From contig JAVXUO010000587.1 in the NCBI GenBank assembly GCA_033065855.1, positions 434,001 through 498,000 on the forward strand: a stretch of 64,000 bases of DNA, written 5' to 3'. Of this stretch, positions 6,075-58,671 are shown piece after piece (position 1 is the stretch's first letter; every line of letters starts with the position of its first letter). A program made the translations under genes and the position numbers. Origin of the DNA: Escallonia rubra (Eukaryota; Streptophyta; Magnoliopsida; Escalloniales; Escalloniaceae). The notes under the pieces were generated by a model. That model was not told the origin of the DNA. It worked only from the letters and a program-made list of their open reading frames with translations, and ran no database searches.

Positions 6075-9000
6075 TCAGGTAGATGCACATACAGGTCTCC
6101 TTTCAATGTCTTCGAAGAGAGAAGCACTGGTTGAATCATGATCTGAAGGGGAAAACCCTGTCCCTTCGCCGGTTACTGAAGATTGTTCAGGTGTGTCAAG
6201 TCTGCCAACAGAGAATGGAGGTTCAGATGGTTGTGGCAGGCTTGTCAGTTGGCCTCCAAGCATGAAAACAACAGATGACATAGTAGGCCTATCTGTAGGG
6301 TTTTCCTGAACACACAACAATGCGATGTTGATCCATCTCAAAGCCTCGGTCAGAGGACAACTTTCCACTAAATTTTGATCTATCAACAGCTGCCCTTCGC
6401 CTTCTTTCCATACTCGCCATGCCTGTTCAGTGTCATGTACATGATGATTAAAAAGTATGAACTCTAATTTCGTTTATCCTACATATGTTGATGAAGAGTG
6501 GATAACCTACATAAGATACGAGGTTTTCATCATGTTCTGCGCGACAGAATCCCCTGTTTCGTTGCCCACTAATTATTTCAAGCATCATAACACCAAAGCT
6601 GTAAACGTCAGACTTGGTTGAAAATAGTCCCTCCATTGCATACTCTGGTGCCATGTATCCACTATCATGAGGGGAAAACACAGAAAAGAGATGATAAGAG
6701 TTAAAATATATGCATACACACAGCAGAATACACTTATTAATAGAGTCACACAAAGTTTCAAGTCTGCAACACACTGAAAACACATGACTTTGCGATGGTA
6801 GGACAAGAGAAACTATTTCAAAAATCTTTCAACAAGTGTAGTATATTGTAGTGTAAGAACAAGTATGTAGCAATGAACCAAGCAAAAAATGGTCATAAGA
6901 CGATCTAAACATTATCCTATGACAAGGTCATGTGCAGAGAATGCAACTTACAGAATTTTCATAACTATCTTGCTAGTACAACCTAAAACCTTCATTACCC
7001 AATCTGGAATCGCAAATGTAACCCCGAATGCATATATACTGCCAACCTGAACAGTAGGTCAAGTTCCCAAAATCCAAGCACCTTACTTTGCCGAAACCAA
7101 GGTGCTGTATTGACGTGCCAAAGAAAGAAACACAAAAATCTTGACCTTGATTATCATCAGCAACCTTGCCAATTATTACGTTCCCTAGTTGTTTCTTGGT
7201 GCAACCAAATAATTTGAACTGGCACCTTACTTACTATAGTATAGCACTAGAGTGACTAACAATTTACAATAATGTCAATTGATATATAGAAAGAGAAGGA
7301 AAGGAAATTACTATGTCCCAACAACTCTGTTTGTGTTGGCCTCAACTTGACTGCTTCCAAAAATTCTAGCGGTGCCAAAATCCGATATTTTCGCGTTCAT
7401 TTCGTCGTCCAACAGAACATTGCTGACTTTCATGTCCCTGTGAATGGTTTTAAGGCGGGAGTCCTCATGCAGGTATCGGAGTCCCTTTGCTATACCATCA
7501 ACTATGTTAGCACGCTTAGGCCAGTCAAGTTCCCCACATTTTATCGGATCTGCTTTACAGGAATAGAAGTTACATGAAACAAAATAAGATTAGTGTACTT
7601 TCTATTGGATGGCTATATGAGAGAGAGAGAGAGATTACAAACCAAAAAGGAATGCGTCAAGACTAGTGTTGGCCATGTACTCATAGACAAGGAGCTTTTC
7701 ATCCCCTTCTATGCAGCAACCTAGAAGCCTCACCAAATTTTTGTGTTGAAGTTTCACTATTAACCTTACTTCAGTCTTGAACTCGGCTAGACCTTGCCCA
7801 GAGTTTTTAGAAAGCCTTTTAACTGCAATTTCTTTTCCATCATCCAGCTTCCCCTAAAAGCATACTGAAAAGGTAAAGAAAGAAACAAAATTTGAAGTCA
7901 TGTCAATACAACTAAAAAATGTCCTTACCCTGTAAACTGGGCCAAAACCACCTTCTCCCAGCTTATTTTCAAGAGAGAAACCGTTTGTGGCAACCTGTAT
8001 AGTGGTTAGCATGAAGTATTGCATTTCTCCACTGTCGTCCTGATCCACTTGAAGCTCATATCCCTCAAGGGAATCCATGCTACATAAAGCTGCAAATTTG
8101 CGTCATGAAAATATTTCAAACCTCTGAATCGAGTAACACATCAAAATTAATGTAACAACACTGTTGATAGACATGCGGAACTATTTTAACCTTTTTGTTT
8201 TTGATTCCTGCTACGCCGGCGGTAAAAAAAAAGCACTAGGATTGCTACCACTGCTGTTGTTAACGTCGATACAGTAACAGGCACTATCCAAGTAGCATTC
8301 TTCCTTCCTACTTCTGCCAACAATAAACAAATTAAGCATCCGAAAAAGCTCAACCACCACCAAAAGAGTCCTTGAGTCGAGGACCTTGAGCCTAGAGATG
8401 ACAAAAAGACTACATTACTCGTGCCAAAGAGAACTTCCTATCATGCAAGAACCTTCAGCACTGGTGTACATCTATATTCTCCACTTTGGATGCCTAGCCA
8501 ATCATAAATTTCAGAATTATTTGGTATGGTACATAACATGGATGGGTCTGAGTACAATAAAACCATTGCCATACGACAGAGATGCCTTATGTTACGAGTA
8601 GAGCAGTTTGTGTCTCCTACAAATAGCAATCTCGTCATATAGTGAAAGGGATAAAGCTACCTGCCCACCTCACATTGCCTATTTCAAGCTGACAAGAACG
8701 GCCGGTGCGTGAGGCTCTGTGTTTCAAACTTGTGACCTACTGAATCCTCCTTACAACGGAGCAACCTTAGGCCAACCGTCACACGTAACATTTTAATGCT
8801 CCAAGACATCGTAAAGCAAGAACTGAAGATTACTAAATTACCGGGTCAAAGTAAATGCTTCAGCTGAACTCTTACTTAAAAGCAACGAAGCAATTCAGAG
8901 CATTTAACCAATATCCTTTCCCCCAATACCAGCATAGTGCAAAATGAAAGGAACAGACCTAGACATACCCGTATACAGTGCTGATGGTGCGGCAAGTGGC

Positions 9001-11961
9001 GGCACATCAACCAGAAGTCACAGCTGGGGCTAAGACCCCTACCTCCTATTTTCCCGTCACAGCAAGATGGAAGAAATCCGAATGCCGTGCCTAAGCAACT
9101 AGTGCATTCAGGCCCAGAAATATCAGGAGTGCACGGCAGAAGCCCATAGATGGTCAAGTTGTCCGGCCCGCCTGTTTTACCTGTAGCAAACATGAGTGTA
9201 GAACCACCAATTGTTGCAGCCTCACCTTGAAGCTTTTCCAACAAGCTTATAAGTGCCTGGTTGAACTGCACCACATGCGGTGCGCTAGCAACATTTACTA
9301 GGTAGCCACTAGGTGTGTTCTCCATGATGCCAAATATAGAATGATTCGAGTACCTAACCATACAATCGTTGATTCGTTGTAATATACAATTGCCTCCTTC
9401 TGGTTTGGACAGAGCTGTCTTCACCTGCGAGTAGGGTCATCAACACATCTACGACACGTATCAGGGTCAACATCTCCCCTGCAAAGCGCGATAGCATTAG
9501 CTACATCGGGTGTTTGGCCAGACGAAAATTTGGAGAAACTAGTGGTCTTAGTGGAGAGTGAAGAGGAGATCGTCGAGGTTTTTATTGTACGCACTATCTT
9601 GTGTATAATTTCCAGTATCTAGGCAGAGGTAGCCTGGGAAATCAGGCTGTGCAATGGTGAGACCAACAGTAAAAACGTGTATGAAAATGTGAAAAAGGAC
9701 TAAAACCCATCTTCCAGAGCCAATTGCCTGATAACTTGTCAAGCTAACAAAGAATATTAGGCCTCCAATTTCGTCAGACTTCAGCTGGGAATGATGAACC
9801 CAATTTGGGGTTGGACAAAGGAGATGTGAGAATACAGTTTATTTGAAAATAATTCATTTGGTAAATGGTGCATATACACTATAGTTGGTACGTCAACAGA
9901 GGAGCTTTTGAAGTTGATTATAACAAATATGAATTTAATAAGGACCTATTACAACTTCCTCCAATTTATTTTGGCCTTTCTAGTTTCCCCTTGTCTTCTC
10001 CTTACTTCATCTTCCTCCAAAATTCTAACATAATTCTCGCCTTGCTCGCACCCTCAATTCTCGCTCCCCCATTCACTCTACACCCTGACGCTCTTGCTAG
10101 AATTGAAATATTCAGTTTGTCCGTGGCAAACCCGTTATAGCGTTAACCATGTTTGTTCAAGCTGGAAGTTAAGGCCCTGCTTGTTTCATCAACCCTTGGA
10201 TAAACTAATTCTGAAGAATATTTTTACCAAAACAGGTTCCCAAGAATCTCTTTTCCTAAAACATCATTTTCAGTTAACGTTGTTTGGCTAAACATTAGAA
10301 AGTTCGAATTGGTTAGTTGAGGAATGGTTTGACCAAAACCGACTACACCAGGGGAGGAAGCGAGGAGGTGTGCATGTGGTGGGGCAAGGGGAAATAGAGG
10401 AAGACCTCGGCTCTCTGAAAGATGACGTATCGACTATTGAGTGGTTTTTCGGCATTTTGTTCTTCAAGAAGTGTTACCGGAACTATTTTTGGTTACACAA
10501 ATCTTAAGAATGCACAAACATCGAAAAGCGGGAAATGCCTTTTTTGAAAAATGATTTCAATGAAACAAACATGACCTAAATCTTGAGCAAAAATTCCAAT
10601 ACCACAATCAACGAACTTCAACTCCAACTTTAAACTTATAACCTAACTAAAACTACAAACTCAAGAAAACGAGAAAATAATACTATTTTCTTGTTCTCAC
10701 ATAAGTCTCGATCTCTCACTCCCGCTTTCAATCCTAGCTTTCTTGCACTCGCTTTCACTCTGGTGACTCTACCCTCTCATGCTCTTGCTATTAATTAGTT
10801 ATTCAATTTGTCGGCTTTGACCCAACAAAACAGAGGTACCTTAACCATGTCCACTAAAGCAAGCAATTCAATCCAGTGCCAGGAAATGAAGTGTTACAAC
10901 TAAAGTAGTTGTTTAAGAAAACCAACTTCATCTTCACATAGCATTAGGATCTGATATCATTTGTCACCTATAATGACGGACTTAACTTTACAAGGACAGT
11001 CGCCTAACTCTAGGAATCTGGCCTAGGATGTCCCAGAAGGCTAGAACGAACTCCAGAGGGCATGTGCCACAACTTTTTTAGGGTTATGACTATCATAATA
11101 TTTAATTGTAATCACAATTGTCGAATAGTTTAAACAAGAAAGAGAAATATGGTGCATACCAGGGGTATTTGTTGATACCGGAGGAGGAGACTGCGGCATT
11201 GGTGGAGGGCCTGGAGGCGGTGCATCAGCCGCATAGAACTGGTACGACTCGAATCTAAGAACACAGCTATTCCTAATAGAAGTACAACCCTTACTCCTAC
11301 TAGCATATCCGAGCATGAAGTTAGTAGCCACATTCAAACACTTCCCACAGTCCAATTTTGAAATATCCGGCGTGCACTGTTCCATCGCATAAATAGCCCA
11401 ATGGCCCCTGTACGAGATATCTCCCTTCGCATACTTCCGTACACCGCCCGCGGCCGCTCGGTCACGTAAATCGAGCAGTAGATCTCCCAGCATGTCATCG
11501 AACTGGGCCGGATTCGTCGCGTTTCCCACATTCCAAGCGACGTAAACAAAACTATCGTCCATGGAGCCAAGTATGTTACGGTTGGAAAACCTTAACATGC
11601 AGTTATCGTACCCGCGACTTGCTTCTTTCTGATTAGGACATTCTTGGGTGATGGCTTGAACAGAGACATTGAGGCAGCTGCGGCAGCTGGCGACCGCCAG
11701 ATAGCCTGCGCAGAGTCCGATAGCATAAACTTGGTTTGGGTTTTGGCCGACGGAAGAGTTAAAGAAGCCGTCGGAGTTGAGGTCGGAGCTGGCGGGGATG
11801 GAGGAAAGGAGGGCATTCAGGTTCCTTGCGTAGGTGCTGTTGGTGGTGTAGTTGCCACTAGTTGAACAGCGGTTGAATCTGAGTTCTGACTGGGAAGTGG
11901 CGAGGCTCACTAGGAAATTGAGAATGAACAGAAAACAGATAGATAGTCTTGGAAAGTCCAT
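6075..11961 (-). CDS. CRK1: cysteine-rich receptor-like kinase, type II ectodomain, 677 aa model
   Basis: Predicted DUF26 receptor Ser/Thr kinase. Minus-strand exons: 11961-11160 (802 bp), 8313-8191, 8089-7929, 7853-7643, 7549-7312, 6661-6511, 6422-6075. They total 2034 bp, in frame throughout, with GT/AG introns. Exon 1 encodes a signal peptide ([12 protein letters not shown]...), two DUF26 domains ([13 protein letters not shown] and [13 protein letters not shown]) and a proline-rich stalk. Exon 2 has the membrane helix, exon 3 the GEGGFG loop, exon 4 the AVK lysine, exon 5 HRDMKVSN and DFG, exon 6 APE and exon 7 the tail ending RRPVCAST. Intron 1 is 2.85 kb and contains a dead type I DUF26 exon. 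Exons 2-7 are secure. Joining them to the type II exon is inference from matching phase-1 donors and the loss of the nearer exon. The alternative is a separate secreted DUF26 protein plus an orphan kinase. Confidence 0.75.
7618..7634. repeat. (GA)n microsatellite in intron 4 of CRK1
   Basis: Short GA run a few bases intronic of the exon 4 donor at 7643. Longer versions occupy the same place in CRK2, CRK3 and CRK4. Confidence 0.8.
8969..9742 (-). pseudogene. Dead type I DUF26 first exon inside CRK1 intron 1
   Basis: Homologous to the intact CRK4 first exon (58,671-57,870). The start [12 protein letters not shown] and signal peptide are present, but relative to CRK4 a 2-bp loss near 9560 makes the frame stop after LLFTLH. 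Further changes include an altered stretch around 9370-9390, a disturbed first cysteine motif and a roughly 34-bp loss near 9000. The phase-1 donor at 8969/8968 survives. It is a fossil of the sensor this kinase probably used before the type II exon took over. Confidence 0.85.
9979..10880. repeat. R block, copy 1 (module repeat in CRK1 intron 1)
   Basis: Intergenic-type sequence shared by the CRK modules at 17,953-18,860, 47,715-48,620 and 59,248-59,915. In CRK4 it lies upstream of the type I exon and so was probably part of an old promoter region. In CRK1-3 it is now inside intron 1. It contains a Tourist-like MITE. Confidence 0.75.
10173..10576. mobile_element. Tourist/PIF-Harbinger-like MITE, copy 1
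   Basis: About 404 bp. The left end GGCCCTGCTTGTTTCA pairs with the right end TGAAACAAACATGACC as an imperfect 16-bp inverted repeat. It is flanked by TAA on both sides (10,170-10,172 and 10,577-10,579), as expected for PIF/Harbinger insertions. No coding capacity. Equivalent copies in the other modules arose by gene duplication, not by separate insertion. Confidence 0.6.
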
Positions 11962-13505
11962 CCTCTTGTTCTCTCTGTGTACTCACACGTTGAGGGTTTT
12001 AAGGATGTAGCAATTAGCATTGAGGGTTTCAGATCTATTGGAAATGTCATGATGGAAACTTCCTTATCATTTTCCTTTTTCTCTCTTGTACGTGGGAGAC
12101 CATAGAATTCAAAAGTCTGGCATCACATTATTGATATATAATTAACGACATAAAAGATTTTATCATTTCATATTTAACGAAATATTCATCACGATACTAC
12201 AAGGTGAATGACTATACGAAAAATCAAATACATAAGAACGCGTCAACCAATTCAGTTTAAATAATACTGAGATCTAGACGCAGACTTGTTTGCACCGAAA
12301 GCACGAAATTGAGACCAGTTTTTTCGACCTTAGGAACCATCTGATGGATGTTTGAGAAAAGTAAGCGTGGAAAATGTGTGTCGGAGGAAAGTAACCTGCA
12401 GAAGAGTGAAAATGGTTCTGCAGAAGAGTGGAAAATGGTGACTGATCATTACCCTGCTTTCAAGGGAATGGTGACTGATTGAGACTCGAGTGGTTAAGGA
12501 CAAGCCAGGTTGAGTCCCACCGTTGACCGTTGACCTAGACTTTTCTTGTACATTAAAAAATTTTGGTCCTACTTTCAATGTTTCCTATGGTTTATTACAT
12601 TTTTGTGTTTGGTTATGAATATCTTTTTTCTTGAACTTTTTCTTTCAAACATATCATCAGCTGGATTCTTTTTTTTTTCTTCTTCTTCAATTTCTAGATC
12701 TCCATGAATCAATGTTTTACTGACATCGATGGACGTTGTCAGAAATCCATCTTTTGATTATCTTCCTCCTTACCTCTACCTTTATCTCTTTTTTTTTTAT
12801 TTCAGCTTCACCATATTATTTAAACTGCCAACTCGATGAATGAACTTACTGGAATTTAAAGCAAGAGAAATCTGAAAAGGAACTAAAATTACTAGATAAT
12901 GTGCCTGTGTAAATGCAAGGGACGTGATGCAATTTTGTTTACTGCCAACAGGTACTTTAATATAGCTTATTCAATTCAAACTTCCAAAAGACAAATAAAG
13001 ATAATTAATTTCTAAGGCAAATGAGCTATTTCATATATACATCTTAAATGTAATAGTTGACACTACTCAGGTATGTAGGTTTCTCCAATAAATTAGTCAA
13101 TTGCCTAATATATAAGAATCATAGCAAAACAGGGAGAAGTTTAATTTTAAGCCTAAACTTTGATTAAAGATCATTTTAGGGAAAAAGATCTATGACAACT
13201 TTACCAAAATTCTGTTTTTGAGTCCTTTTATCCTCATTAACTGTATTGTGAACCAGAATTTAGTAAGGAATATTTAACGATAGGTCTAATTGTCTGTTTT
13301 AGTGGCAAAATGGTGCGAGCTTAGCCGAAAAAGGGTGTTGATTTACTTATATTTTTTCTCTATCTTTCGTGTAAAATATTGGAAAATCCACATGTATTTA
13401 GTGGCGCCTGATATATTCTTTCAAGAGATGTATATTCAAGAGATTTGCTTTTTAGATCAAAAGTTCATACCAGTAAGAAATTGTTCAAACATATATGCCC
13501 CCGCT
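11962..13505. other. CRK1 upstream region, no gene seen
   Basis: About 11,962-12,560 matches the upstream regions of CRK2 (19,946-20,490) and CRK3 (49,721-50,350) and is the presumed promoter. About 12,560-13,505 is AT-rich, and I recognise neither a gene nor a repeat boundary in it. Confidence 0.5.
12523..12535. promoter_or_regulatory. Double W-box upstream of CRK1
   Basis: Two TTGACC hexamers 7 bp apart (12,523-12,528 and 12,530-12,535), about 560 bp upstream of the CRK1 start codon. TTGAC[C/T] is the known WRKY factor binding core. A single TTGACC stands at the equivalent place upstream of CRK2 and CRK3. Function is inferred. Confidence 0.4.
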
Positions 13506-14676: not shown

Positions 14677-16317
14677 CTAGTAGAGAGAAGCACTGGTCGA
14701 GTCTTGATCTGAAGGGAAAAGTGCTGTCCCTTCGCCGTTTATTGAAGATTGTTCAAATAAGTCAAGTCTGCCAACAGAGAATGGAGGTTCGGATGGTTGT
14801 GGCAGGCTTGTCAGTTGGCCTCCAAGCATGAAAACAACAGTTGACATAGCAGGCCTATCGGTAGGATTTTCCTGAACACACAACAATGCAATGTTGATCC
14901 ATCTCAAAGCCTCGGTCAGAGGACAACTTTCCACTAGATTTTGATCTATCAACAGCTGCCCTTTGCCTTCTTTCCATACTCGCCAAGCCTGTTCATTTCA
15001 TATACATGATGTTTAAAAAGTACGAAGTCTAATTTCGTTTATCCTATATAGGTTGGTGAAGAGTGGATAACCTACATAAGACACGAGGTTCTCAACATGC
15101 TCTGCCCCATAGAAGACCCTGTTGCGTTTCCCAGTGATGATTTCAAGCATCATAACACCGAAGCTGTACACGTCAGATTTGGTTGAAAATAGTCCCTCCA
15201 TTGCATACTCTGGTGCCATGTATCCGCTATCAGAAGGAGAAAACATAAAAAAGAGATGATAAGAGCTTAGTTGAAGGATTCTCCAGTTCTGGGGACGCTC
15301 CCGCCCCGGAACCTCGCTCCCGACTCTCGCACCCGTTCCCACTCCCACCCAAAAACCCACTATACTACTCGCGCTCCCGCTTCGGAACCTCGCACCCGCT
15401 CCCGCTCCCACCCAAGCTTTGTGCAACTAAGGATAAGAGTTATAGATAATCTTACGTTGTTCAAGCACATCAGGATACAGTAATTAGAATTACACTTAGT
15501 TTTACGTCTGCAACATACTGAAAGTGCAAACCTTTGCGATTGTATGACAAGAGACTGTTTCAAGAATCTTGGAGCAAGTATACTACGGTCATAAGAGGAT
15601 CTATACATTATACTGTGACAAGGTCATGTGCAGAGAATGCAACTTACAGAACTTTCATAACTATCTTGCTAGTACTCCTTAAAACCTTCATTCTCCAATC
15701 TGGAATCGAAAATCTAACCCCGAATGCATATATACTGCCAACCTGAACAGCAGTAGTTCAAGTTTTCAAAAATCTAAACACCTTACTTTGCTCAAAGCAA
15801 GGTGCTGTATTGAAGTGCCAAAATAAGAAACACAGAGATCTCGGCCTTGATTATCATCACTAACCTTGCCAATCATTACCTTCCCTAGTTGTTTCTTTCG
15901 GCAACCAAATAATTTGAACTGGCACCTTAATTACTATAGTATAGCACTAGAGTGACTTACAATTTACAATACAGTCATTTGATATATGGAAAGAGAAGGA
16001 AAGGAAATTACTATGTCCCAACAACTCTGTTTGTGTTGGCCTCAACTTGACTGCCTCCAAAAATCCTAGCGGTGCCAAAATCCGATATTTTCGCATTCAT
16101 TTCATCGTCCAACAGAACATTGCTGGCTTTCATGTCCCTGTGAATGGTTTTAAGGCGAGAGTCCTCGTGCAGGTATCGGAGTCCCTTTGCTATACCATCA
16201 ACTATGTTAGCACGCTTAGGCCAGTCGAGTTCCCTACATTTTATCGGATCTGCTTTGCAGGAAGAAAAGTTACATGAAACAGACTAAGATTACAGTACTT
16301 TCTATTGGATGGCTAAA

Positions 16318-16350
<33 letters not shown>

Positions 16351-19300
16351 TTACAAACCAAAAAGGAATGCGTCAAGACTAGTGTTGGCCATATATTCAT
16401 AAACAAGGAGCTTTTCATCCCCTTCTACGCAGCAACCTAAAAGCCTCACCAAATTCTTGTGTTGGAGTTTCACAATTAACCTTACTTCAGTCTTGAACTC
16501 GTCTAGACCTTGCCCAGAGTTTTTAGAAAGCCTTTTAACTGCAATTTCTTTTCCATCATCCAGCTTCCCCTAAAAGCATACTGAAAAGATAAAGAAAGAA
16601 ACAAAATTTGAAGTCATGTCGATACAACTCAAAAATGTCCTTACCCTGTAAACTGGGCCAAAACCACCTTCTCCCAGCTTATTTTCAGTAGAGAAACCGT
16701 TTGTGGCAGCCTGTATAGTGGTTAGCATGAAGTAATGCATTTCTCCACTGTCGTCCTGATCCATTTGAAGCTTATATTCCTCAAGGGAATCCATGCTACA
16801 TAAAGCTGTCAATTTGCGTAATGAAAATATTTCAAACCTCTGAATCGAGTAACACATCAGAATCATTGTAACAACAACACCGTTGATAGACATGCTGAAC
16901 TATTTTAACCTTTTTGCTTTTGGTTCCTGCGACGCCGGCGGTAAACAAAGAGCACCAGAATTGCTACCACTGCTGCTGTTAACGTCGATACAGTAACAGG
17001 CACTATCCAAGTAGCATTCTTCCTTCCTACTTGTGCCAACAATAAACAAATTAAGGTAACCACAATAAGCATCCAAAAAAAAAAATCTACTTTTCCATAG
17101 AGCATCTCTTGAATCCCTTTCCGCTAATGTGGAGAGACAATGCCTCAATTACCACCAAAAGCGTCCTTGAGTCTAGGACCTTGAGCCTAGAGATGACAAA
17201 AAGACTGCATTATTCGTGACAAAGAGAACTTCCTATCATGCAAGAACCTTCTGCATGGAGTACATCTATATTCTTCACTTTGGATGCCTAGCCAATCATA
17301 AATTTCAGAATAATTTGGTACAATAAGCTAGGTACTTGTCCATGGTACATGACATGGATGGGTCCGAGTACATTAAAACCATTGCCATAGGACAGAGATG
17401 TCTTATGTTACGAGTAGAGCTGTTTGTGTTTCCTACAAGTAGCAATTTCATCGTCTAGTGAAAGGGATAGAGCTACCTGCCCACCTCACATTGCCTATTT
17501 CAAGCTGACAAGAACGGCCAGTGCGTGAGGCTCCGTGTTTCAAACTTGCGACCTACTGACTCCTCCTTACAAAGGAGCAACCTTAGGTCAACCGTCACAA
17601 GTAACATTTTAATGCTCCAGGACATTGTTAAGAAAGAATATGCTTCAGCTGAACTCTTACTTAAAAAGCAATGAAGCAATTCAGAGCATTTAACCAATAT
17701 CCTTGCCCCAAATACCAGCATAGTGCAAAATGAAAGGAACAGACCTAGACATACCTGCATGCAATGCTGGTAGTGCGGCAAGTGGCGGCACATCAACCAG
17801 AGTCCCATTATAAAAGGCTCTAATCTCATACCAGAAGTCAGCTGGGGCTAAGACCCCTACCTCCTATTTTCCCGTCACAGCAAGATGGAAGAAATCCGAA
17901 TGCAGTGCCTAAGCAACTAGAGCATTCAGGCCCAGAAATATCAGGAGTGCACTTTAATTTCCCCTTGTTTTCTCCTTACTTCATCTTCCTCCTAAGTTCT
18001 AACATAATTCTCGCCTCGCTCCCACCCTCAATTCTCGCTTCCCCATTCACTCTACGCCCTGACTCTCTTGCTAGAATTGAAGTATTCAGTTTGTCCGTGA
18101 CATACCCGTTATAACGTTAACCATGTTTGTTCAAGCTGGAAGTTAAGGCCCTGCTTGTTTCAAGCAAAACAACCCATGGATAAACTAATTCAGAAGAATA
18201 TCCTTCCCAAAACAAGTTCCCAAGAATCTCTTTTCCTAAAAACATCATTTTCAGTTGTTTGGCTAAACATTAGAAAGTTCGAATTGGTTAGTTGAATAAT
18301 GGTTTGACCTTAACCGACTACACCAGGGAGGAAGTGAGGGTGCGGTGGGGAAAGGGGAAATAGAGGAAGAGCTCGGCTGTCTGAAAAATGTGTACAGACA
18401 ATTGGGTGGTTTTTCGGCATTTTTTTCTTCAAAAGTGTGACCGGAACCATTTTTCGTTACACAATTCTTAAGAACGCATTAACATCGAAAAGTGGGAAAA
18501 GCTTTTTCTGGAAATGATTTCAATGAAACAAACAGGATCAAAATCTTGAGCAAAAATTCCAATACCACAATCAAAGAACTTCAACCCCAACTTTAAACTT
18601 ATAAACTAGCTAAAACAACAAACTCAAGAGAACAAGAAAATGATACTATTTTCTTGTTCTCACATAAGCCTCGATCTCTCACTCCTGCCTTCAATCCTTT
18701 CTTTCTTGCTCTCGCTTTCACTCTGGTGACTCTACGCTCTCTTGCTCTTGCTATTAATTAGTTATTCAAACCCTCTTGCGTTCGCTCTCCATCCAACAAA
18801 ACAGTGGTACCTTAACCATGTCCACTAAAGCAAGCAATTCAATCCAGTGCCAGGAAATGAAGTGCTACAACTAAAGTACTTGTTTAATAAAACCAACTTC
18901 ATCTTCACATAGCATTAGGATCTGACATCATTTGTCACCCATAACGACGGATTTAACTTTACAAGGACAGTTGTCTAACTCTAGGAATCTGGCCTAGGAT
19001 GTCCCAGAAGGCTAGAACGAACTCCGGAGGGCATGTGCCATAACATTTTTAGGCGTTAATTATGACTACCATAACATTTTTAATTGTAATCACATTTGTC
19101 GAATAGTTTAAACAAGAAAGAGAAACATCGTGCATACCAGGGATAATTGGTGATACCGGAGGAGGAGACTGCAGCAATATTGGCGGCGGCGGTGCCACGA
19201 GTGGCGGTGGTGGCGATGCATCAGCCGTATAGAACGGGTACGACTCGAATCTGATAACACAGCTATACCTAACAGAAAAACAACCATACCTCCCACTACA

Positions 19301-19945
19301 ATATCGCAACAAGTCTTCAGTAGCAGAATCCAAACACTTCCCACAATCCAGTTCCGATATATCCGGCGTGCACTGTTCCATCGCATAAATAGTCCAATCG
19401 CTCTTGTAGCTGCCATCCGCATACTTCCGTACACCATCCGCGGGGGCTTTGCGACGTAAATCGGACAGTAGGATTTGCAGCACGTCATTGAACTGGGTCG
19501 TCGCGTTTTGCACGTTATAACGGAGGGTAACAAAACCATCGTCCATGGAGCCAAGTATGTTACGGTTGGAAAACCTTAAGATGCAGTTATCGTACCAGCG
19601 GATGGCTTCTTTCTGATTAGAACATTCTTGGGTGATGGCTTGAACAGCGTCATTGAGGCAGCTGTGGCAGCTGGCGACCTCCAGATAGCCTGCACAGAGT
19701 GCGATAGCGTAAACTTGGTCCGGGATTTGGCCAATGGAGGAGTTAAAGAAGCCGGCGGAGTTGAGGTGGGAGCTAGTGGGGATGGAGGAAAGGAGCTTTT
19801 CCAGGTTGGCTGCGTAGGTGCTGTTGGTGGTGTAGTTGCCAGTGTCTGAACAGTTGTTAAATATGAGTACTGAGCTGGGAGTGGTGAGGCTCACTAGGAA
19901 ATTGAGAATGAACAGAAACCAGAAGGATAGTCTTGGATTATCCAT
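14677..19945 (-). CDS. CRK2: cysteine-rich receptor-like kinase, type II ectodomain, 666 aa model
   Basis: Predicted DUF26 receptor kinase. Minus-strand exons: 19945-19138 (808 bp), 17029-16910, 16805-16645, 16569-16359, 16249-16012, 15226-15076, 14988-14677. They total 2001 bp, in frame. Exon 1 has a signal peptide ([12 protein letters not shown]...), motifs [13 protein letters not shown] and [13 protein letters not shown], and a proline-rich stalk. Kinase motifs [20 protein letters not shown] and APE are all present. The exon 2 acceptor used in CRK1 and CRK4 has changed from CAG to CAC; the AAG three bases further on keeps the frame and drops one residue. The tail ends SASLY, 12 residues shorter than CRK1. 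Intron 1 (2.1 kb) carries a truncated type I exon. The upstream Met at 19,978 is in frame, but 19,945 aligns with CRK1 and CRK3. Confidence 0.75.
15266..15431. mobile_element. hAT-type MITE in CRK2 intron 5
   Basis: A 166-bp GC-rich element with 8-bp terminal inverted repeats CTTAGTTG/CAACTAAG and a perfect 8-bp target duplication GATAAGAG at 15,258-15,265 and 15,432-15,439. CRK1 has a single GATAAGAG at the same place in its intron, and CRK4 a near-identical single site (GATAAGAT), so the empty site is visible. Eight-base duplications are typical of hAT transposons. No coding capacity. CRK3 carries the same insertion. Confidence 0.85.
16317..16351. repeat. (GT)n(GA)n microsatellite in CRK2 intron 4
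   Basis: Compound dinucleotide repeat ending about 8 bp from the exon 4 donor at 16,359. On the coding strand it is a pyrimidine-rich TC run followed by AC. Confidence 0.9.
17755..17953 (-). pseudogene. Truncated type I DUF26 exon in CRK2 intron 1
   Basis: Matches the last roughly 200 bp of the CRK4 first exon (57,870-58,070), including the second cysteine motif region and the donor. It ends abruptly where R-block sequence begins (17,953/17,954). The promoter, signal peptide and first DUF26 domain are gone. The CRK3 counterpart breaks at the same base. Confidence 0.85.
17954..18860. repeat. R block, copy 2
   Basis: Shared module sequence now inside CRK2 intron 1. Here it abuts the truncated type I exon directly, whereas in CRK1 and CRK4 a few hundred bases lie between them. 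Confidence 0.75.
18147..18539. mobile_element. Tourist-like MITE, copy 2
   Basis: Homologue of the 10,173-10,576 element. Left end GGCCCTGCTTGTTTCA, right end TGAAACAAACAGGATC. The left TAA flank is kept; the right flank has drifted. Inherited by module duplication. Confidence 0.6.
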
Positions 19946-36100: not shown

Positions 36101-36450
36101 ACCACATCCCAACACATCCCACCAAATTCTCCTACATCAAATTCAAATTCTCCTTTAACCACCTCATCCCAACACATCCCACAAAATTCTCCTGCTTCCC
36201 CTGCTCCCAAATCTAAATTGATACCCACCTCATCTACACATGCGTCTAAACCAACATCATGTACACTGTAAACACAATTTGGAAAATGAAAACAGAATTA
36301 ATACTGATGCCTTGCCCAATTCTAATACTGATGCGTGACATAATGGATATACCAAAGTCATCCTAAGAGTGTTAAGAAATTTTTCTAAGCCCAAGCCAAT
36401 TGTTACCTTCTCTTTTCCTATTTTGGAATGATTTGTTTTTTATTTAGCAT
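33125..36450 (+). mobile_element. Ty1-copia retrotransposon fossil, broken, nested in the Helitron
   Basis: A 5' LTR of about 135 bp ends in CA at 33,259 (its start is uncertain), followed at once by the primer-binding site TGGTATCCAGAGCC, as in many plant Ty1-copia elements. The coding part spans about 33,355-36,271. Recognisable parts in order: gag with a zinc knuckle (CHHCNQPGHIRPYC), aspartic protease (DSGATHHI) and integrase (HNRMGHPS, YSDLWGP, HEQNGVAERKHRHV). I recognise no reverse transcriptase, RNase H or 3' LTR. The element is broken, with a few breaks. The lineage looks Ale/Retrofit-like, uncertain. It is younger than the Helitron sequence it sits in. The 3' limit is approximate. 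Confidence 0.8.
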
Positions 36451-44381: not shown

Positions 44382-46061
44382 TCAGGTAGATGCACATACA
44401 GGTCTCCTTTCAATGTCTTCGAAGAGAGAACCACTGGTCGAGTCTTGATCTGAAGGGAAAAGTGCTGTCCCTTCGCCGTTTATTGAAGATTGTTCAAATA
44501 AGTCCAGTCTGCCAACAGAGAATGGAGGTTCAGATGGTTGTGGCAGGCTTGTCAGTTGGCCTCCAAGCATGAAAACAACAGTTGACATAGCAGGCCTATC
44601 GGTAGGATTTTCCTGAACACACAACAATGCAATGTTGATCCATCTCAAAGCCTCGGTCAGAGGACAACTTTCCACTAGATTTTGATCTATCAACAGCTGC
44701 CCTTTGCCTTCTTTCCATACTCGCCAAGCCTGTTCATTTCATTTACATGATGATTAAAAAGTACGAAGTCTAATTTCGTTTATCCTACATATGTTGGTGA
44801 AGAGTGGATAACCTACACAAGATACGAGGTTTTCAACATGCTCTGCCCCATAGAAGCCCCTGTTGTGTTTCCCAGTGATGATTTCAAGCGTCATAACACC
44901 GAAGCTGTACACGTCAGACTTGGTTGAAAATAGTCCCTCCATTGCATACTCTGGTGCCATGTATCCGCTATCAGAAGGAGAAAACATAAAAAAGAGATGA
45001 TAAGAGCTTAGTTGCAGGATTCTCCAATTCTGGTGACGCTCCCGCCCCGGAACCTCGCTCCCGACTCTCGCACCCGTTCCCACTCCCACCCAAAAACCCA
45101 CTATACTACTCGAGCTCCCGCTTCAGAACCTCGCACCTGCTCCCGCTCCCACCCAAGCTTTGTGCAACTAAGGATAAGAGATAGATATTCTTACGTTGTT
45201 CAAGCACATCAGGATACAATAATTAGAATTACACTTAGTTTTACGTCTGCAACATACTGAAAGTGCATACCTTTGCGATTGTATGACAAGAGACTGTTTC
45301 AAGAATCTTGGATCAAGTATACTACGGTCATAAGAGGATCTATACATTATACTGTGACAAGGTCATGTGCAGAGAATGCAACTTACAGAACTTTCATAAC
45401 TATCTTGCTAGTACTCCTTAAAACCTTCATTCTCCAATCTGGAATCGCAAATCTAACCCCGAATGCATATATACTGCCAACCTGAACAGCAGCAGGTCAA
45501 GTTTTCAAAAATCTAAACACCTTACTTTGCTCAAAGTAAGGTGCTGTATTGAAGTGCCAAAATAAGAAACACAGAGATCTCGGCCTTGATTATCATCACT
45601 AACCTTGCCAATCATTACCTTCCCTAGTTGTTTCTTTCGGCAACCAAATAATTTGAACTGGCACCTTAATTACTATAGTATAACACTAGAGTGACTTACA
45701 ATTTACAATTTACAATGGTCATTTGATATATGGAAAGAGAAGGAAAGGAAATTACTATGTCCCAACAACTCTGTTTGTGTTGGCCTCAACTTGACTGCCT
45801 CCAAAAATCCTAGCGGTGCCAAAATCCGATATTTTCGCATTCATTTCATCGTCCAACAGAACATTGCTGGCTTTCATGTCCCTGTGAATGGTTTTAAGGC
45901 GAGAGTCCTCGTGCAGGTATCGGAGTCCCTTTGCTATACCATCAACTATGTTAGCACGCTTAGGCCAGTCGAGTTCCCTACATTTTATCGGATCTGCTTT
46001 GCAGGAAGAAAAGTTACATGAAACAGACTAAGATTACAGCACTTTCTATTGGATGGCTAAA

Positions 46062-46111
<50 letters not shown>

Positions 46112-49100
46112 CAAACCAAAAAGGAATGCGTCAAGACTAGTGTTGGCCATATATTCATAAACAAGGAGCTTTTCATCGCCTTCTACGCAGCAACCTAAAA
46201 GCCTCACCAAATTCTTGTGTTGGAGTTTCACAATTAACCTTACTTCAGTCTTGAACTCGTCTAGACCTTGCCCAGAGTTTTTAGAAAGCCTTTTAACTGC
46301 AATTTCTTTTCCATCATCCAGCTTCCCCTAAAAGCATACTGAAAAGATAAAGAAAGAAACAAAATTTGAAGTCATGTCGATACAACTCAAAAATGTCCTT
46401 ACCCTGTAAACTGGGCCAAAACCACCTTCTCCCAGCTTATTTTCAGTAGAGAAACCGTTTGTGGCAGCCTGTATAGTGGTTAGCATGAAGTAATGCATTT
46501 CTCCACTGTCGTCCTGATCCATTTGAAGCTTATATTCCTCAAGGGATTCCATGCTGCATAAAGCTGTCAATTTGCGTAATGAAAATATTTCAAACCTCTG
46601 AATCGAGTAACACATCAGAATCATTGTAACAACAACACTGTTGATAGACATGCTGAACTATTTTAACCTTTTTGTTTTTGGTTCCTGCGACGCCGGCGGT
46701 AAACAAAGAGCACCAGGATTGCTACCACTGCTGCTGTTAACGTGGATACAGTAACAGGCACTATCCAAGTAGCATTCTTCCTTCCTACTTGTACCAACAA
46801 TAAACAAATTAAGGTAACCACAATAAGCATCCAAAAAAAAAATCTACTTTTCCATAGAGCATCTCTTGAATCCCTTTCCGCTAATGTGGAGAGACAATGC
46901 CTCAATTACCAACAAAAGAGTCCTTCTTGAGACTAGGACCATGAGCCTAGAGATGACAAAAAGAATACATTACTCATGACAAAGAGAACTTCCTATCATG
47001 CAAGAACCTTCTGCATGGAGTACATCTATATTCTTCACTTTGGATGCCTAGCCAATCATAAATTTCAGAATAATTTGGTACAATAAGCTAGGTACTTGTC
47101 CATGGTACATGACATGGATGGGTCCGAGTACATTAAAACCATTGCCATAGGACAGAGATGTCTTATGTTACGAGTAGAGCTGTTTGTGTTTCCTACAAGT
47201 AGCAATTTCATCGTCTAGTGAAAGGGATAGAGCTACCTGCCCACCTCACATTGCCTATTTCAAGCTGACAAGAACGGCCAGTGCGTGAGGCTGCGTGTTT
47301 CAAACTTGCGACCTACTGACTCCTCCTTACAAAGGAGCAACCTTAGGTCAACCGTCACAAGTAACATTTTAATGCTCCAGGACATTGTTAAGAAAGAGTA
47401 TGCTTCAGCTGAACTCTTACTTAAAAGCAATGAAGCAATTCAGAGCATTTAACCAATATCCTTGCCCCCAATACCAGCATAGTGCAAAATGAAAGGAACA
47501 GACCTAGACATACCTGCATGCAATGCTGGTGGTGCGGCAAGTGGCGGCACATCAACCAGAGTCCCATTATAAAGGGCTCTAACCTCATACCAGAAGTCAG
47601 CTGGGGCTAAGACCCCTACCTCCTATTTTCCCGTCACAGCAAGATGGAAGAAATCCGAATGCAGTGCCTAAGCAACTAGAGCATTCAGGCCCAGAAATAT
47701 CAGGAGTGCACTTTAATTTCCCCTTTTGAACCAAAAAAAAAAAAACTGTAATTTCCCCTTGTTTTCTCCTTACTTCATCTTCCTCCTAAGTTCTAACATA
47801 ATTCTCGCCTCGCTCCCACCCTCAATTCTCACTTCCCCATTCGCTCTACGCCCTGACTCTCTTGCTAGAATTGAAGTATTCAGTTTGTCCGTGACATACC
47901 CGTTATAACGTTAACCATGTTTGTTCAAGCTGGAAGTTAAGGCCCTGCTTGTTTCAAGCAAAACAACCCATGGATAAACTAATTCTGAAGAATATCCTTC
48001 CCAAAACAAGTTCCCAAGAATCTCTTTTCCTAAAAACATCATTTTCAGTTGTTTGGCTAAACATTAGAAAGTTCGAATTGGTTAGTTGAATAATGGTTTG
48101 ACCTTAACCGACTACACCAGAGAGGAAGTGAGGGTGTGGTGGGGAAAGGGGAAATAGAGGAAGAGCTCGGCTGTCTGAAAAATGTGTACAGACAATTGGG
48201 TGGTTTTTCGGCATTTTTTTCTTCAAAAGTGTGACCGGAACCATTTTTCGTTACACAATTCTTAAGAACGCATTAACATCGAAAAGTGGGAAAAGCTTTT
48301 TCTGGAAATGATTTCAATGAAACAAACAGGATCAAAATCTTGAGCAAAAATTCCAATACCACAATCAAAGAACTTGAACCCCAACTTTAAACTTATAAAC
48401 TAGCTAAAACAACAAACTCAAGAGAACAAGAAAATCTCGATCTCTCACTCCTGCCTTCAATCCTTTCTTTCTTGCTCTCGCTTTCACTCTGGTGACTCTA
48501 CGCTCTCTTGCTCTTGCTATTAATTAGTTATTCAAACCCTCTTGCGTTCGCTCTCCATCCAACAAAACAGTGGTACCTTAACCATGTCCACTAAAGCAAG
48601 CAATTCAATCCAGTGCCAGGAAATGAAGTGCTACAACTAAAGTACTTGTTTAATAAAACCAACTTCATCTTCACATAGCATTAGGATCTGACATCATTTG
48701 TCACCCATAACGACGGATTTAACTTTACAAGGACAGTTGTCTAACTCTAGGAATCTGGCCTAGGATGTCCCAGAAGGCTAGAACGAACTCCGGAGGGCAT
48801 GTGCCATAACATTTTTAGGCGTTAATTATGACTACCATAACATTTTTAATTGTAATCACATTTGTCGAATAGTTTAAACAAGAAAGAGAAACATCGTGCA
48901 TACCAGGGATAATTGGTGATACCGGAGGAGGAGACTGCAGCAATATTGGCGGCGGCGGTGCCACGAGTGGCGGTGGTGGCGGTGCATCAGCCGTAGCTTG
49001 AAAGAATGGGTACCACTCGAATCTGATAACACAGCTATACCTAACAGAAAAACAACCATACCTCCCACTACAATATTGCAACATGTCTTTAGTAGCTGAA

Positions 49101-49720
49101 TCCAAACACTTCCCACAATCCAGTTCCGATATATCCGGCGTGCACTGTTCCATCGCATAAATAGTCCAATCGCTCTTGTAGCTGCCATCCGCATACTTCC
49201 GTACACCATCCGATGGGGCTTTGCGACGTAAATCGGACAGTAGGATTTGCAGCACGTCATTGAACTGGGTCGTCGCGTTTCTCTGGTTATAACGGACGAA
49301 AACAAAACCATCGTCCATGGAGCTAAGTATGCTACGGTTGGAAAACCTTAACATGCATTCATCGTACCAGAGACCGGCTTCTTTCTGGTTAGGACACGCT
49401 TGGGTGATGGCTTGAACGGAGTTATTGAGGCAGCTGCGGCAGCTGGCGACCGCCAGATAGCCTACGCAGAGTCCGATAGCGTAAACTTGGTCCGGGTTTT
49501 GGCCGACGGAGGAGTTAAAGAAGCCGTCGGAGTCGAGGTCGGCGCTGGTGGGGATGGAGGAAAGGAGCTCATGCAGGTTCCTTGAGTAGGTGCTGTCGGT
49601 GGTGTAGTTGCCACTTGTTGAACAGCGGTTGTTGTAATTGGGTGCTGGCTGGGGAGTGGTGAGGCTCACTAGGAAATTGAGAATGAACAGAAACCAGAAG
49701 GATAGTCTTGGATTATCCAT
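44382..49720 (-). CDS. CRK3: cysteine-rich receptor-like kinase, type II ectodomain, recombinant tail, 681 aa model
   Basis: Predicted DUF26 receptor kinase. Minus-strand exons: 49720-48904 (817 bp), 46787-46668, 46563-46403, 46327-46117, 45993-45756, 44967-44817, 44729-44382. They total 2046 bp, in frame. Exon 1: signal peptide ([12 protein letters not shown]...), motifs [13 protein letters not shown] and [13 protein letters not shown], proline-rich stalk. Kinase motifs [20 protein letters not shown] and APE are present. It shares with CRK2 the shifted exon 2 acceptor, the intron 5 hAT MITE and the truncated type I exon. The last exon is CRK2-like until about 44,437 and CRK1-like from about 44,424 downstream, so it regains the long tail ending RRPVCAST. 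Linking exon 1 across the 2.1-kb intron is inference, as for CRK1. Confidence 0.75.
45007..45172. mobile_element. hAT-type MITE in CRK3 intron 5
   Basis: Duplicate of the CRK2 insertion: 166 bp, CTTAGTTG/CAACTAAG ends, 8-bp duplication GATAAGAG at 44,999-45,006 and 45,173-45,180. Inherited through the array duplication. Confidence 0.85.
46062..46109. repeat. (GT)n(GA)n microsatellite in CRK3 intron 4
   Basis: The same locus as in CRK2, longer here. It ends about 8 bp from the exon 4 donor at 46,117. Confidence 0.9.
47514..47712 (-). pseudogene. Truncated type I DUF26 exon in CRK3 intron 1
   Basis: Same remnant and same breakpoint as in CRK2. A short insertion containing an A-run (about 47,725-47,753) and a repeat of the word TAATTTCCCC follow the breakpoint. 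Confidence 0.85.
47715..48620. repeat. R block, copy 3
   Basis: Shared module sequence inside CRK3 intron 1. Lacks a small segment near 48,435 present in copy 2. Confidence 0.75.
47941..48333. mobile_element. Tourist-like MITE, copy 3
   Basis: Homologue of copies 1 and 2, with ends GGCCCTGCTTGTTTCA and TGAAACAAACAGGATC. Inherited by duplication. Confidence 0.6.
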
Positions 49721-54913: not shown

Positions 54914-57900
54914 CTAGCAGAGAGAAGCACTGGTTGAATCTTGATCTGAAGGGAAAAAAGCTGCCCCTTCGCCAGTTATTGAAGATTGTTCAAATATGTC
55001 AAGCCTGCCAACAGAGAATGGAGGTTCGGATGGTTGTGGCAGGCTTGTCAGTTGGCCTCCAAGCATGAAAACAACAGTTGACATAGTAGGCCTATCGGCA
55101 GGATTTTCCTGAACACACAACAATGCAATGTTGATCCATCTCAAAGCCTCGGTCAGAGGACAACTTTCCACTAGATTTTGATCAATCAACAGCTGCCCTT
55201 TGCCTTCTTTCCATACTCGCCAAGCCTGTTCATTTCATATACATGATGATTAAAAAGTACGAAGTCTAATTTCGTTTATCCTATATATGTTGGTGAAGAG
55301 TGGATAACCTACACAAGATACGAGGTTTTCAACATGCTCTGCCCCATAGAAGCCCCTGTTGCGTTTCCCAGTGATGATTTCAAGCATCATAACACCGAAG
55401 CTGTACACGTCAGACTTGGTTGAAAATAGTCCCTCCATTGCATACTCTGGTGCCATGTATCCACTATCAGAAGGGGAAAACATAAAAAGAGATGATAAGA
55501 TTTATAGATATCCGTACGTTGTTCAAGCACATCCGGATACAGTAATCAGAATTACACTAAGTTTTACGTCTGCAACATACTGAGAGTGCATAACTTTGCG
55601 ATTATATGACGAGAGACTGTTTCAAGAATCTTGGAGCAAGTATACTATGGTCATAAGAGGATCTATACATTATACTGTGACAGGGTCATGTGCAGACAAT
55701 GCAACTTACAGAACTTTCATTACTATCTTGCTAGTACTCGTTAAAACCTTCATTCCCCAATCTGGATTCGAAAATCTAACCCGGAATGAATATATACTGT
55801 CAACCTGAACAGCAGTATGTCAAGTTTCCAAAAATCTAAACACCTTACTTTGCTCAAAGCAAGGTGCTGTATTGAAGTGCCAAAATCAGAAACACAGAGA
55901 TCTCGGCCTTGATTATCATCACCAACCTTGCCAATCATTACCTTCCCTAGTTGTTTCTTTCTGCAACCAAATAATTTGAACTGGCACCTTAATTACTACA
56001 GTATAGCACTAGAGTGACTTACAATTTACAATACTGTCATTTGATATATGGAAAGAGAAGGAAGGGAAATTACTATGTCCCAACAACTCTGTTTGTGTTG
56101 GCCTCAACTTGACTGCTTCCAAAAATTCTAGCGGTGCCAAAATCCGATATTTTCGCGTTCATTTCGTCGTCCAATAGAACATTGCTGGCTTTCATGTCCC
56201 TGTGAATGGTTTTAAGGCGGGAGTCCTCATGCAGGTATCGGAGTCCCTTTGCTATACCATCAACTATGTTAGCGCGCTTAGGCCAGTCGAGTTCCCTACA
56301 TTTTATCGGATCTGCTTTGTAGGAAGAAAAGTTACATGAAACAGAATAAGATTACAGTACTTTCTATTGGATAGCTAAATGAATGTGTGTGTGTGTGTGT
56401 TTGTGTGAGTGAGAGTGAGAGTGAGAGTGAGAGAGAGAGAGAGAGAGAGATTACAAACCAAAAAGGAATGCGTCAAGACTAGTGTTGGCCATGTATTCAT
56501 AGACAAGGAGCTTTTCATCCCCTTCTATGCAGCAACCTAAAAGCCTCACCAAATTTTTGTGTTGAAGTTTCACAATTAGCCTTACTTCAGTCTTGAACTC
56601 GTCTAGACCTTGCCCAGAGTTTTTAGAAAGCCTTTTAACTGCAATTTCTTTTCCATCATCCAGCTTCCCCTAAAAGCATACTGAAAAGATAAAGAAAGAA
56701 ACAAAATTTGACAGTCATGTCAATACAGCTCGAAAATGTCCTTACCCTGTAAACTGGGCCAAAACCACCTTCTCCCAGCTTATTTGCAATAGAGAAACTG
56801 TTCGTGGCAGCCTGTATAGTGGTTAGCATGAAGTATTGCATTTCTCCACTGTCGCCCTGATCCAGTTGAAGCGTATATCCCTCAAGGGAATCCGCTTTAC
56901 ATAAAACTGCCAATTTGCGTAATGAAAATATTTCAAACCTCTGAATCGAGTAACACATCAGAATCAACGTAACAACAACACTGTTGATCGAAATGCTGAA
57001 TTATTTCAACCTTTTCGTTTTTGGTTCCTGCCATGCCAGCGGTAAACAAAGAGCACCAGGATTGCTACCACTGCTGCTGTTAACGTTGACACCGTAACGG
57101 GCACTATCCAAGTAGCATTCTTCCTTCGTACTTCTGCCAACACTAAACAAATTAAGGTAACCACAATAAGCGTCCAAAAAACGAAAGCTATAACCTTCAA
57201 TAGAGCATCTCTTGAATCCCTTTCCACTGATGTGGAGAGACAATGCCTCAATTACCAACAAAAGAGTCCTTCTTGAGACTAGGACCATGAGCCTAGAGAT
57301 GACAAAAAGAATACATTACTCATGACAAAGAGAACTTTCTATCAGGCAAGAACCTTCTGCAGTGGAGTACATCAATATTCTCCGCTTTGGATGCCTAGGC
57401 AATCATAAATTTCAGAATCATTTGGTACAATAAGGTACTTGTCCAATGCATAAAATGGATGGATCCGAGTACATTAAAAAACCATCGCCTTAGGACAGAA
57501 TATCTTATGTAACGAGTAGAGCTGTTTGTATCTCCTACAAATAGCAATCACATCGTATGGTGAAAGGGATAAAGCTACCTGCCCACCTCACATTGCCTAT
57601 TTCAAGCTGACGAGAACGGCCAGTGCGTGAGGCTCCATGTTTCAAACTTGTGACCTACTGACCTCCTTACAATGGAGCAACCTTAGGTCAACCCTCACAC
57701 ATAACATTTTAATGCTCCAAGATATTGTAAAGAAAGAACTGAAGACTCCGAAATTACAGGGTCTAAGTATATGCTTTAGCTGAACTCTTACTTAAAAGCA
57801 ATGAAGCAATTCAGAGCATTTAACCAATACCAGTATAGTGCAAAATGAAAGGAACAGACCTAGACATACCTGCATGCAATGCTGGTGGTGCAGCAGGTGG

Positions 57901-58671
57901 TGGTGCATCAGCCAGAGTCTCATTATAAAAGGCTACAATCTCATACCGAAAGTAACAGCTGGGGCTAAGAACCCTACCTCCTATTTTCCCGCCACAACAA
58001 GATGGATAAACTGCGATTGCCGTGCCTAAGCAACTAGAGCATTGAGGCCCAGAAATATCAGGAGTGCACTGCACAAGCCCATAGATGGTCAAGTTGTCCG
58101 GGCCGACTGTTTTACCTGTAGCAAACATGCGTGTAGAACCACCACCTGTTGCAGCCTCGCCTTGAAGCTTTTCCAACAAGCTTATAAGTGCCTTGTTGAA
58201 CGGCACCACATGTGGTGCGCTATAAACATTTAGTAGGTAGCCACTAGGTGCGGTCTCCATGATGCCAAATATAGAACGATTCGAGTACCTAACCATACAA
58301 TCGTCGTAGTATCCGATTACCTCCTTCTGGTATGGACATAGCTGTCTTAACTTGCGAGTAGAGTCATCGACACATCTACGACACGTATCGGGGTCAACAT
58401 CTCCCCTGCAAAGCGCTATAGCATTAGCTACGTCGGGTGTTTGGCCAGACGAAAAGTTGGAGAAACTAGTCGCCTTAGTGGAGAGAGTGAAGAGGAGATC
58501 GTCGAGGTTTTTACGGTACACGCTATCTTGTGTGTAATTTCCAGTATCTAGGCAGAGGTAGCCTGGGAAATCAGGCTGTGCAACGGTGAGACCAACAGTA
58601 AAAGCGTGTATGAAAATGTGAAAAAGGACTAACACCCATCCTCCAGAGCCCATTGCCGGATAACTTGTCAA
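54914..58671 (-). CDS. CRK4: cysteine-rich receptor-like kinase, type I ectodomain, 665 aa
   Basis: Complete predicted DUF26 receptor Ser/Thr kinase. Minus-strand exons: 58671-57870, 57133-57011, 56906-56746, 56669-56459, 56311-56074, 55463-55313, 55225-54914. They total 1998 bp, with GT/AG introns. Residues 1-31 signal peptide; DUF26 domains at about 32-135 and 145-255 with [13 protein letters not shown] and [13 protein letters not shown]; proline-rich stalk to 267; membrane helix about 276-298; GEGGFG about 353-358; catalytic-site Lys about 374; HRD about 469-471; DFG about 489; APE about 516. Arg precedes the catalytic Asp, so it is an RD-type kinase. The tail ends SASLC. It has no type II exon upstream and best represents the ancestral layout. 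It likely acts at the plasma membrane with the DUF26 pair in the apoplast; ligand unknown. Confidence 0.9.
56383..56452. repeat. Compound (GT)n/(GAGT)n/(GA)n microsatellite in CRK4 intron 4
   Basis: The longest and most complex version of the intron 4 microsatellite, ending about 7 bp from the exon 4 donor at 56,459. Confidence 0.9.

Follow-up and report, generated by a model that had tools for sequence, protein, structure and literature searches.

The formation of chimeric genes through tandem duplication and exon shuffling, as well as duplication-degeneration-complementation, are known routes of gene evolution. In the cysteine-rich receptor-like kinases (CRKs), exchange between ectodomain and kinase has been inferred from tanglegrams and conflicting trees, and for a grass group of CRKs the formation of chimeras after tandem duplication has been proposed (Vaattovaara et al. 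2019, PMC6368629). According to the portions of that study consulted here, the CRK gene plan has seven exons, usually with one for the DUF26 domains and one for the membrane segment, and gene conversion takes place among tandem vCRKs (PMC6368629). The locus described here lies in a window of 64,000 nucleotides of Escallonia rubra (C962:434001-498000), and the genome searched with it comprised 566 Mb in 3,222 contigs of one assembly. The gene that we call CRK1 is very probably a chimeric CRK, made by replacement of its first exon in a fusion that afterwards multiplied in the array.

CRK1 occupies 11,961-6,075 on the minus strand, and its gene model is that of a cysteine-rich receptor-like kinase with seven exons (Table 1), which join into a single open frame of 677 aa with GT/AG at 6/6 junctions. 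The initial annotation had described an intact type II DUF26 exon in the same splice phase as the membrane exon, and this proves correct, the phase between exon 1 and the membrane exon being 1 and the boundaries GT/AG. We refer to ectodomain exons of type II as head A and to those of type I as head B, and to the genes of the array as Ga to Gl, with CRK1 as Gd. In the joined protein Pfam recognises DUF26 twice (PF01657, E 1.3e-33) along with a protein kinase (PF07714, 2.7e-49), and CRK1 is a CRK by its two DUF26 domains (PF01657 twice in head A) and its seven exons, with one for the ectodomain, one for the membrane, and five for the kinase. In each DUF26 of a CRK the motif C-X8-C-X2-C is expected, and both domains have it (Cys 84/93/96 and 196/205/208). 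Active RD kinases carry AVK, HRD, DFG, and APE motifs; with AVK, HRDMK, DFG, and APE in the CRK1 translation, the predicted RD-kinase motif set is complete.

The product had also been called a perfect 677-aa receptor. Its open frame and all of its splice sites bear this description out, but the length may be 677 or 676 aa, since use of the second of 2 adjacent membrane-exon acceptors (CAG, AAG) gives the shorter form, and residue 220 is Ala where 7/9 aligned A heads have Cys. This tandem acceptor, CAGAAG at window 8311-8316, keeps both AGs in Ga, Gd, and Gh and has a single AG in the other 7/10 genes. Residue 220 lies outside C-X8-C-X2-C, and of the 12 cysteine columns that the heads share beyond the N-terminal stretch, CRK1 retains 11. 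On the predicted pairing, Ala220 may leave residue 226 without a disulphide partner; Gh lacks both cysteines of the 220/226 pair.

Table 1. Features of CRK1, of its first intron and upstream region, and of three sister genes (window positions unless a contig is named).
Feature	Position	Strand	Remarks
Promoter region carried with head A	11990..12900	-	442-bp match to Gj at 93%
CRK1 exon 1, intact head A	11160..11961	-	two DUF26, N-terminal signal-like stretch, donor G/GTATGC, phase 1
Start of intron 1, taken as A-derived	10962..11159	-	
Junction zone	10890..10961	-	
Former B-gene upstream region, now within intron 1	9725..10889	-	pieces match upstream of Ga's intact B head
Relic of displaced head B (DUF26)	8922..9724	-	frameshifted, without ATG
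Old intron 1 of the B gene	8320..8921	-	76-98% to the same intron in nine sisters, 101-636 bp
CRK1 exon 2, membrane segment	8191..8313	-	tandem acceptor CAG/AAG
CRK1 exon 3, kinase	7929..8089	-	
CRK1 exon 4, kinase	7643..7853	-	
CRK1 exon 5, kinase	7312..7549	-	HRDMK and DFG
CRK1 exon 6, kinase	6511..6661	-	APE
CRK1 exon 7, kinase end and stop	6075..6422	-	
Gc	14677..19945	-	intact head A 19945-19138, 3' part of B relic 17963-17711, membrane and kinase 17029-14677, 666 aa
Gb	44382..49720	-	intact head A 49720-48904, 3' part of B relic 47722-47467, membrane and kinase 46787-44382, 681 aa
Ga	54914..58653	-	658 aa; same kinase behind an intact head B (58653-57870)
Ga, broken A head, upstream, beyond the window	C962:503355-502896		

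Two native A genes outside the cluster, on C965 and C1838, were assembled from their loci. The native A heads are 66-69% identical to the head of CRK1, and the kinase exons of these genes are 52-67% identical to those of CRK1 in K1-K4 and 38-40% in K5. Fused and native A heads form one group against the B heads in the head tree (100/100), and all ten kinases of the cluster, including that of CRK1, group against the two native A kinases in the kinase tree (100/100). The earlier proposal that the sensor was replaced and the kinase kept is supported by both trees and by the different kinase of the native A genes. In a protein tree the six fused heads are mixed with native A heads, partly without resolution, which we count against our best explanation; in a nucleotide tree they stand together when the native heads and Gh are set as outside, a rooting that was chosen. 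Under either tree the head and the kinase of CRK1 differ in ancestry, and the parts of the gene trace to different parent lineages, as the parts of a chimeric gene do. On C965, where A heads precede other kinases and for which the lists of heads and kinases are lower bounds, five A heads matched over most of the query each have a K3-like exon 2.0-2.6 kb downstream with no second listed head between, and one of these heads has a stop; the same contig has a sixth, broken head with no listed kinase and one kinase with no listed head.

Intron 1 of CRK1 retains what seems to be the front end of a second gene. A broken type I DUF26 exon had been reported next to the membrane exon, and a relic of this kind is indeed present, frameshifted and with ATT at the position of the ATG of an intact sister exon. 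On the other side of head A, the upstream DNA of CRK1 matches that of the native A loci L003 and L008 in pieces of 53-104 bp at 81-85%, with no match to the upstream DNA of L005 (2/3 native loci matched). Within intron 1, a patch of 64-68 bp (11,028 to about 10,962, 81%) matches intron 1 of L003 and L005, and the remainder of the segment taken as A-derived has no match to these 2 native introns. From 10,888 on, intron 1 matches the DNA upstream of the B head of Ga piecewise, the longest piece being 585 bp at 89%. The homology limits thus bracket the A/B fusion junction at ~10,962 to 10,890, with that one 64-68-bp patch as its A side, and a later length change sits at the same place. Gj, Ge, and Ga have a longer form between the two parts, whereas the other four copies (CRK1, Gb, Gc, and Gl) are shortened at 10,889/10,890, most simply by a deletion that they share. 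We read the shared junction DNA as pointing to one fusion, which would have taken place before the copies multiplied in the array. In Gj, ~5 kb of what lies between the A and B parts is a dispersed repeat with many partial copies genome-wide, and Ge and Ga have the empty site of this insert. That the intervening stretch of Gj might be an original spacer still holding an A kinase was considered and rejected, because no kinase exon was found in it at E 1e-3 and ~5 kb of it is this repeat, with its empty site in two sisters.

For the sister genes, C962:234001-434000 was added to the window to give 264 kb, and exons were mapped by tblastn (243 matches, 147 after overlapping weaker ones were dropped). 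A kinase was counted if it had a full K3 exon at least 95% (rounded) identical to that of CRK1. Ten kinases pass, all in this cluster, and the next best reaches at most 72% among the 150 of 1,472 candidates that were scored; orphan kinase fragments are outside the ten, as is a kinase (945-108) that is cut short where the window begins. Since the copies recombine, the ten genes do not count as independent observations. Each kinase has a single full-length open head (10/10), an A head in Gb, Gc, Gd, Ge, Gj, Gl, and Gh and a B head in Ga, Gi, and Gk, and a broken second head is present in all except Gi and Gk (8/10), with two broken B heads each in Ge and Gl. The seven A-headed genes encode 666-682 aa, with GT/AG at all sites, a broken second head, and A heads that are open over 264-272 codons with 0 stops. 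Ga and Gk are also whole, their B heads being ATG-initiated. Gi was considered as a third intact B-headed gene, a candidacy weakened by ATT for ATG, with no other in-frame ATG, and by GG for the membrane-exon donor, and it is probably dead. In Gi (C962:327863-326674), DNA of the A-type promoter runs directly into the B head that lacks its ATG, the arrangement that excision of the A exon and its intron would leave.

A single gene with a single swap, as first pictured, is therefore too small a frame. The layout recurs in five sisters of the same fusion (Gb, Gc, Ge, Gj, and Gl), which also disposes of CRK1 as a lone oddity, and a sixth sister, Gh, has a similar layout from a different break, its inner A exon being cut after residue 184 and joined to B intron DNA. 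The old head was, in addition, lost several times and retained in one sister. The donor GGTATGC is found in 6/6 A heads of the fusion lineage of CRK1. In Gl (C962:263086-254359), a Gc-type A head with its own B relic precedes a B relic, membrane exon, and kinase of Gj type, and the gene looks like a second-generation chimera with three stacked heads. In Ge, a decoy membrane exon (C962:392673-392590) follows head A and precedes the true one, with its acceptor present and cut before its donor. Splicing into this decoy would yield a head that is anchored in the membrane and lacks a kinase, and the presence of the decoy is counted against our best explanation for CRK1. Elsewhere in the window are a DUF26 head at 3073-108 (minus), 57% to B, whose kinase breaks off within the third kinase exon, two further DUF26 heads at 41510-40629 and 54645-53986 (minus), the second of them broken, with no kinase found behind either, and an LTR retroelement at 33319-36271 (plus) with Copia-type gag, integrase, and related domains (Pfam).

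Scored against the intact sister exon of Ga, the B relics fall into three sets of lesions. That of CRK1 has lost 2 bp at 167 and 34 bp at 704 and gained 8 bp at 347. The relics Ge1, Ge2, Gj, and Gl2 have all lost 1 bp at 573 and 32 bp at 652 by shared deletions, Ge2 being a mosaic that also has the 2-bp deletion of CRK1, and in Gb, Gc, and Gl1 everything before 574 is gone and a 2-bp deletion at 699 is shared. No disabling B lesion is common to all copies across the three sets, and head B was therefore probably whole at the fusion and was broken at least three times. Ga is the reverse case, with a piece of the A promoter, a deletion of the A start and the first part of the head, and then the remaining A exon and intron. 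The seven copies of the one fusion thus comprise six with A intact and B broken and one, Ga, with A broken and B intact, a 6:1 pattern that chance would pair in this way in 1 of 7 given the margins. This is suggestive of reciprocal loss of heads A and B among the copies.

The exchange of DNA between copies complicates the history of head A itself. Among the 15 pairs of the six genes, which are not independent, divergence in head A exceeds that in the intron of the same gene at nonsynonymous sites in 14/15 (p < 0.005) and at synonymous sites in 13/15 (p < 0.05), and this raised silent divergence points to block exchange and not to selection alone. Between CRK1 and Gj, its closest head, synonymous differences number 2.5/90 in the first DUF26, 18.2/79 in the second, and 0/21 in the tail (second against first, p 2.7e-5), and the flanks differ at 10/262 bases in the following intron and 9/380 in the promoter. 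Similar flanks around a middle that is divergent at silent sites as well would be left by block exchange, which points to the second DUF26 of CRK1 or Gj having been exchanged later as a block. Over the second DUF26 of CRK1 (window 11210-11560, minus), silent divergence is 23%, compared with 3% and 0% on either side. A genome-wide search for the donor of this block did not find one, the best other match being 77%, compared with 94% for the first half. Because the copies recombine in this way, a given link between head and kinase may be younger than the shared lesions suggest.

If selection has kept head A, dN/dS is not where it is seen. The ratio is 0.50-1.72 over 36 pairs including the native genes, about 1 in fused and native heads alike and 1.16 between two native genes, so purifying selection by dN/dS was set aside for a test of stop-free frames, and the constraint on head A is seen only as absent stops and kept cysteines. 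Neutral evolution was simulated along the A-head tree, without indels and without block exchange, and stops were counted. With full branches, all seven A heads were stop-free in 0/500 runs, with 2.0-4.1 stops expected per head. As part of the exon divergence would come from block exchange, these branches are too long, and scaled runs were made. At 0.4 of the branch lengths, approximately the ratio of intron to exon divergence, stop-free outcomes arose in 0/1,000 runs for the seven heads and in 9/1,000 for the six of this fusion; at 0.2 they arose in 34/1,000 and 77/1,000, respectively, and the first of these two values, from a simulation without block exchange, is counted against our best explanation.

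The kinase is constrained in 3/5 pairs tested. Its dN/dS is 0.19-0.71 across the 45 pairs among the ten genes. For Gb and Gc, whose B relics lack the same half, the kinases differ at 11/283 synonymous and 7/929 nonsynonymous sites (p 6e-4), and constraint is also significant for CRK1-Gb (p 1.2e-6) and CRK1-Gh (p 4.7e-5). Two closely related pairs, CRK1-Gj and CRK1-Ge, do not reach significance (p 0.33 and p 0.12, respectively), and we count them against our best explanation.

A route that would account for these features begins in a head-to-tail array, where a deletion or unequal exchange would place the 5' part of an A-type gene before a complete B-type CRK, joining it to the upstream DNA of the latter. 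The A part would carry its promoter, its ectodomain exon, and about 200 bp of intron 1. The B ectodomain exon is a first exon, with its own ATG and no 3' splice site. For want of such a site in head B, the A donor in a transcript from the A promoter would pair in phase 1 with the acceptor that follows, at the membrane exon, and by this predicted splice B would be skipped. Heads A and B both end in phase 1, as would be expected if they follow one gene plan. The old head B would turn into intron sequence and decay, and the fused gene would multiply, each copy retaining one open head, mostly A, with B in one sister. For CRK1 we infer that the A splice is used and that the receptor is made, and what the receptor senses likewise belongs to this predicted part of the explanation. 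If this is how the array arose, then its intermediates are still present in the DNA as native genes of the donor type, a bracketed junction, a displaced head that has decayed to different degrees in different copies, and a sister with the old head, and the route itself is simple and testable, in that a new first exon placed upstream would cause the old one to be skipped for want of an acceptor.

Other explanations were also weighed. Head A could be a separate secreted DUF26 protein of the CRRSP type that ends in the intron, with the kinase a headless pseudogene behind it. Read-through past the A donor would in fact give a protein of 306 aa with its stop in the intron, and a class of secreted DUF26 proteins exists, as described in the consulted portions of PMC6368629. 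We nevertheless regard this as quite improbable, since the phase-1 donor is kept and the kinase is open with intact splice sites in 7/7 A-headed genes, the kinase is constrained between Gb and Gc, both of which are missing half of head B, and the peptides encoded by the intron tail vary in length and frame among the six heads. That the whole locus is a decaying pseudogene array, with frames open through youth or gene conversion, would suit the many fragments and orphan heads, the loss of ATG and donor in Gi, the conversion-like blocks, and the kinase pairs CRK1-Gj and CRK1-Ge in which constraint is not significant. It is, however, likewise quite improbable when the same genes combine lesioned B relics with lesion-free A heads, when the neutral simulations are considered, and when constraint is found in the kinases of Gb-Gc, CRK1-Gb, and CRK1-Gh. 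An assembly artefact, in which unrelated pieces were collapsed into one gene, has in its favour a highly repetitive array and heads of the same score near the ends of C962 and C963, suggesting overlapping contigs; yet the order is the same in six genes with different lesions and inserts, and the site of the 5-kb dispersed repeat of Gj is empty in Ge and Ga, and we consider such a collapse hardly credible.

A further alternative extends our best explanation, in that both heads may once have been alternative first exons of one kinase, with the copies specialised by reciprocal loss. At this two-headed stage, two sensors with their own promoters would have fed one kinase. The contrast between the six copies with head A and Ga with head B argues for it, as do three lesion sets that share none and thereby leave B probably whole when the fusion first multiplied. 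On the other hand, there is a single clear reverse loss, expected by chance in 1 of 7, and absent shared lesions are no proof that B was expressed, so that we give this extension somewhat less than even weight. It is likewise conceivable, if a little short of probable, that the ectodomain exon acts throughout the array as a stackable and exchangeable module, with two-headed fusions that later lose either head. The outermost intact head would take over, because inner heads have no 3' splice site, and new sensors could be added upstream repeatedly; Ge and Gl hold three heads each. Exchange within the ectodomain exon would further swap single DUF26 domains.

First-exon replacement, our preferred reading, allows a direct comparison with what has been described. 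The swap of an ectodomain or a kinase and the seven-exon plan are features that CRK1 shares with the CRKs treated in the consulted portions of PMC6368629. The exchanges there were inferred from trees of 880 CRKs, whereas the array here retains the displaced exon, a bracketed junction, and the traces of a putative reciprocal loss, three features of which those portions of PMC6368629 describe no example. Among the matches listed in a literature search, by their titles and the starts of their abstracts, no paper concerned a CRK with a displaced head left in its intron. The kind of event, exchange between CRK ectodomain and kinase, is already known, and the fossil intermediates are the new part. 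In structure, head A of CRK1 matches the tandem DUF26 chains of PDB 6gre and 6grf (residues 32-238 and 29-247; E 3.4e-13 and 4e-12). These chains are cysteine-rich repeat secretory proteins without a kinase, unlike CRK1, and in this comparison CRK1, unlike 7/9 A heads, lacks one cysteine of the second domain. As in chimeric genes and in duplication-degeneration-complementation, a new 5' exon sits on an old 3' part and the losses among copies appear complementary. Unlike in known cases of duplication-degeneration-complementation, the units lost here would be alternative sensor heads of one receptor kinase.
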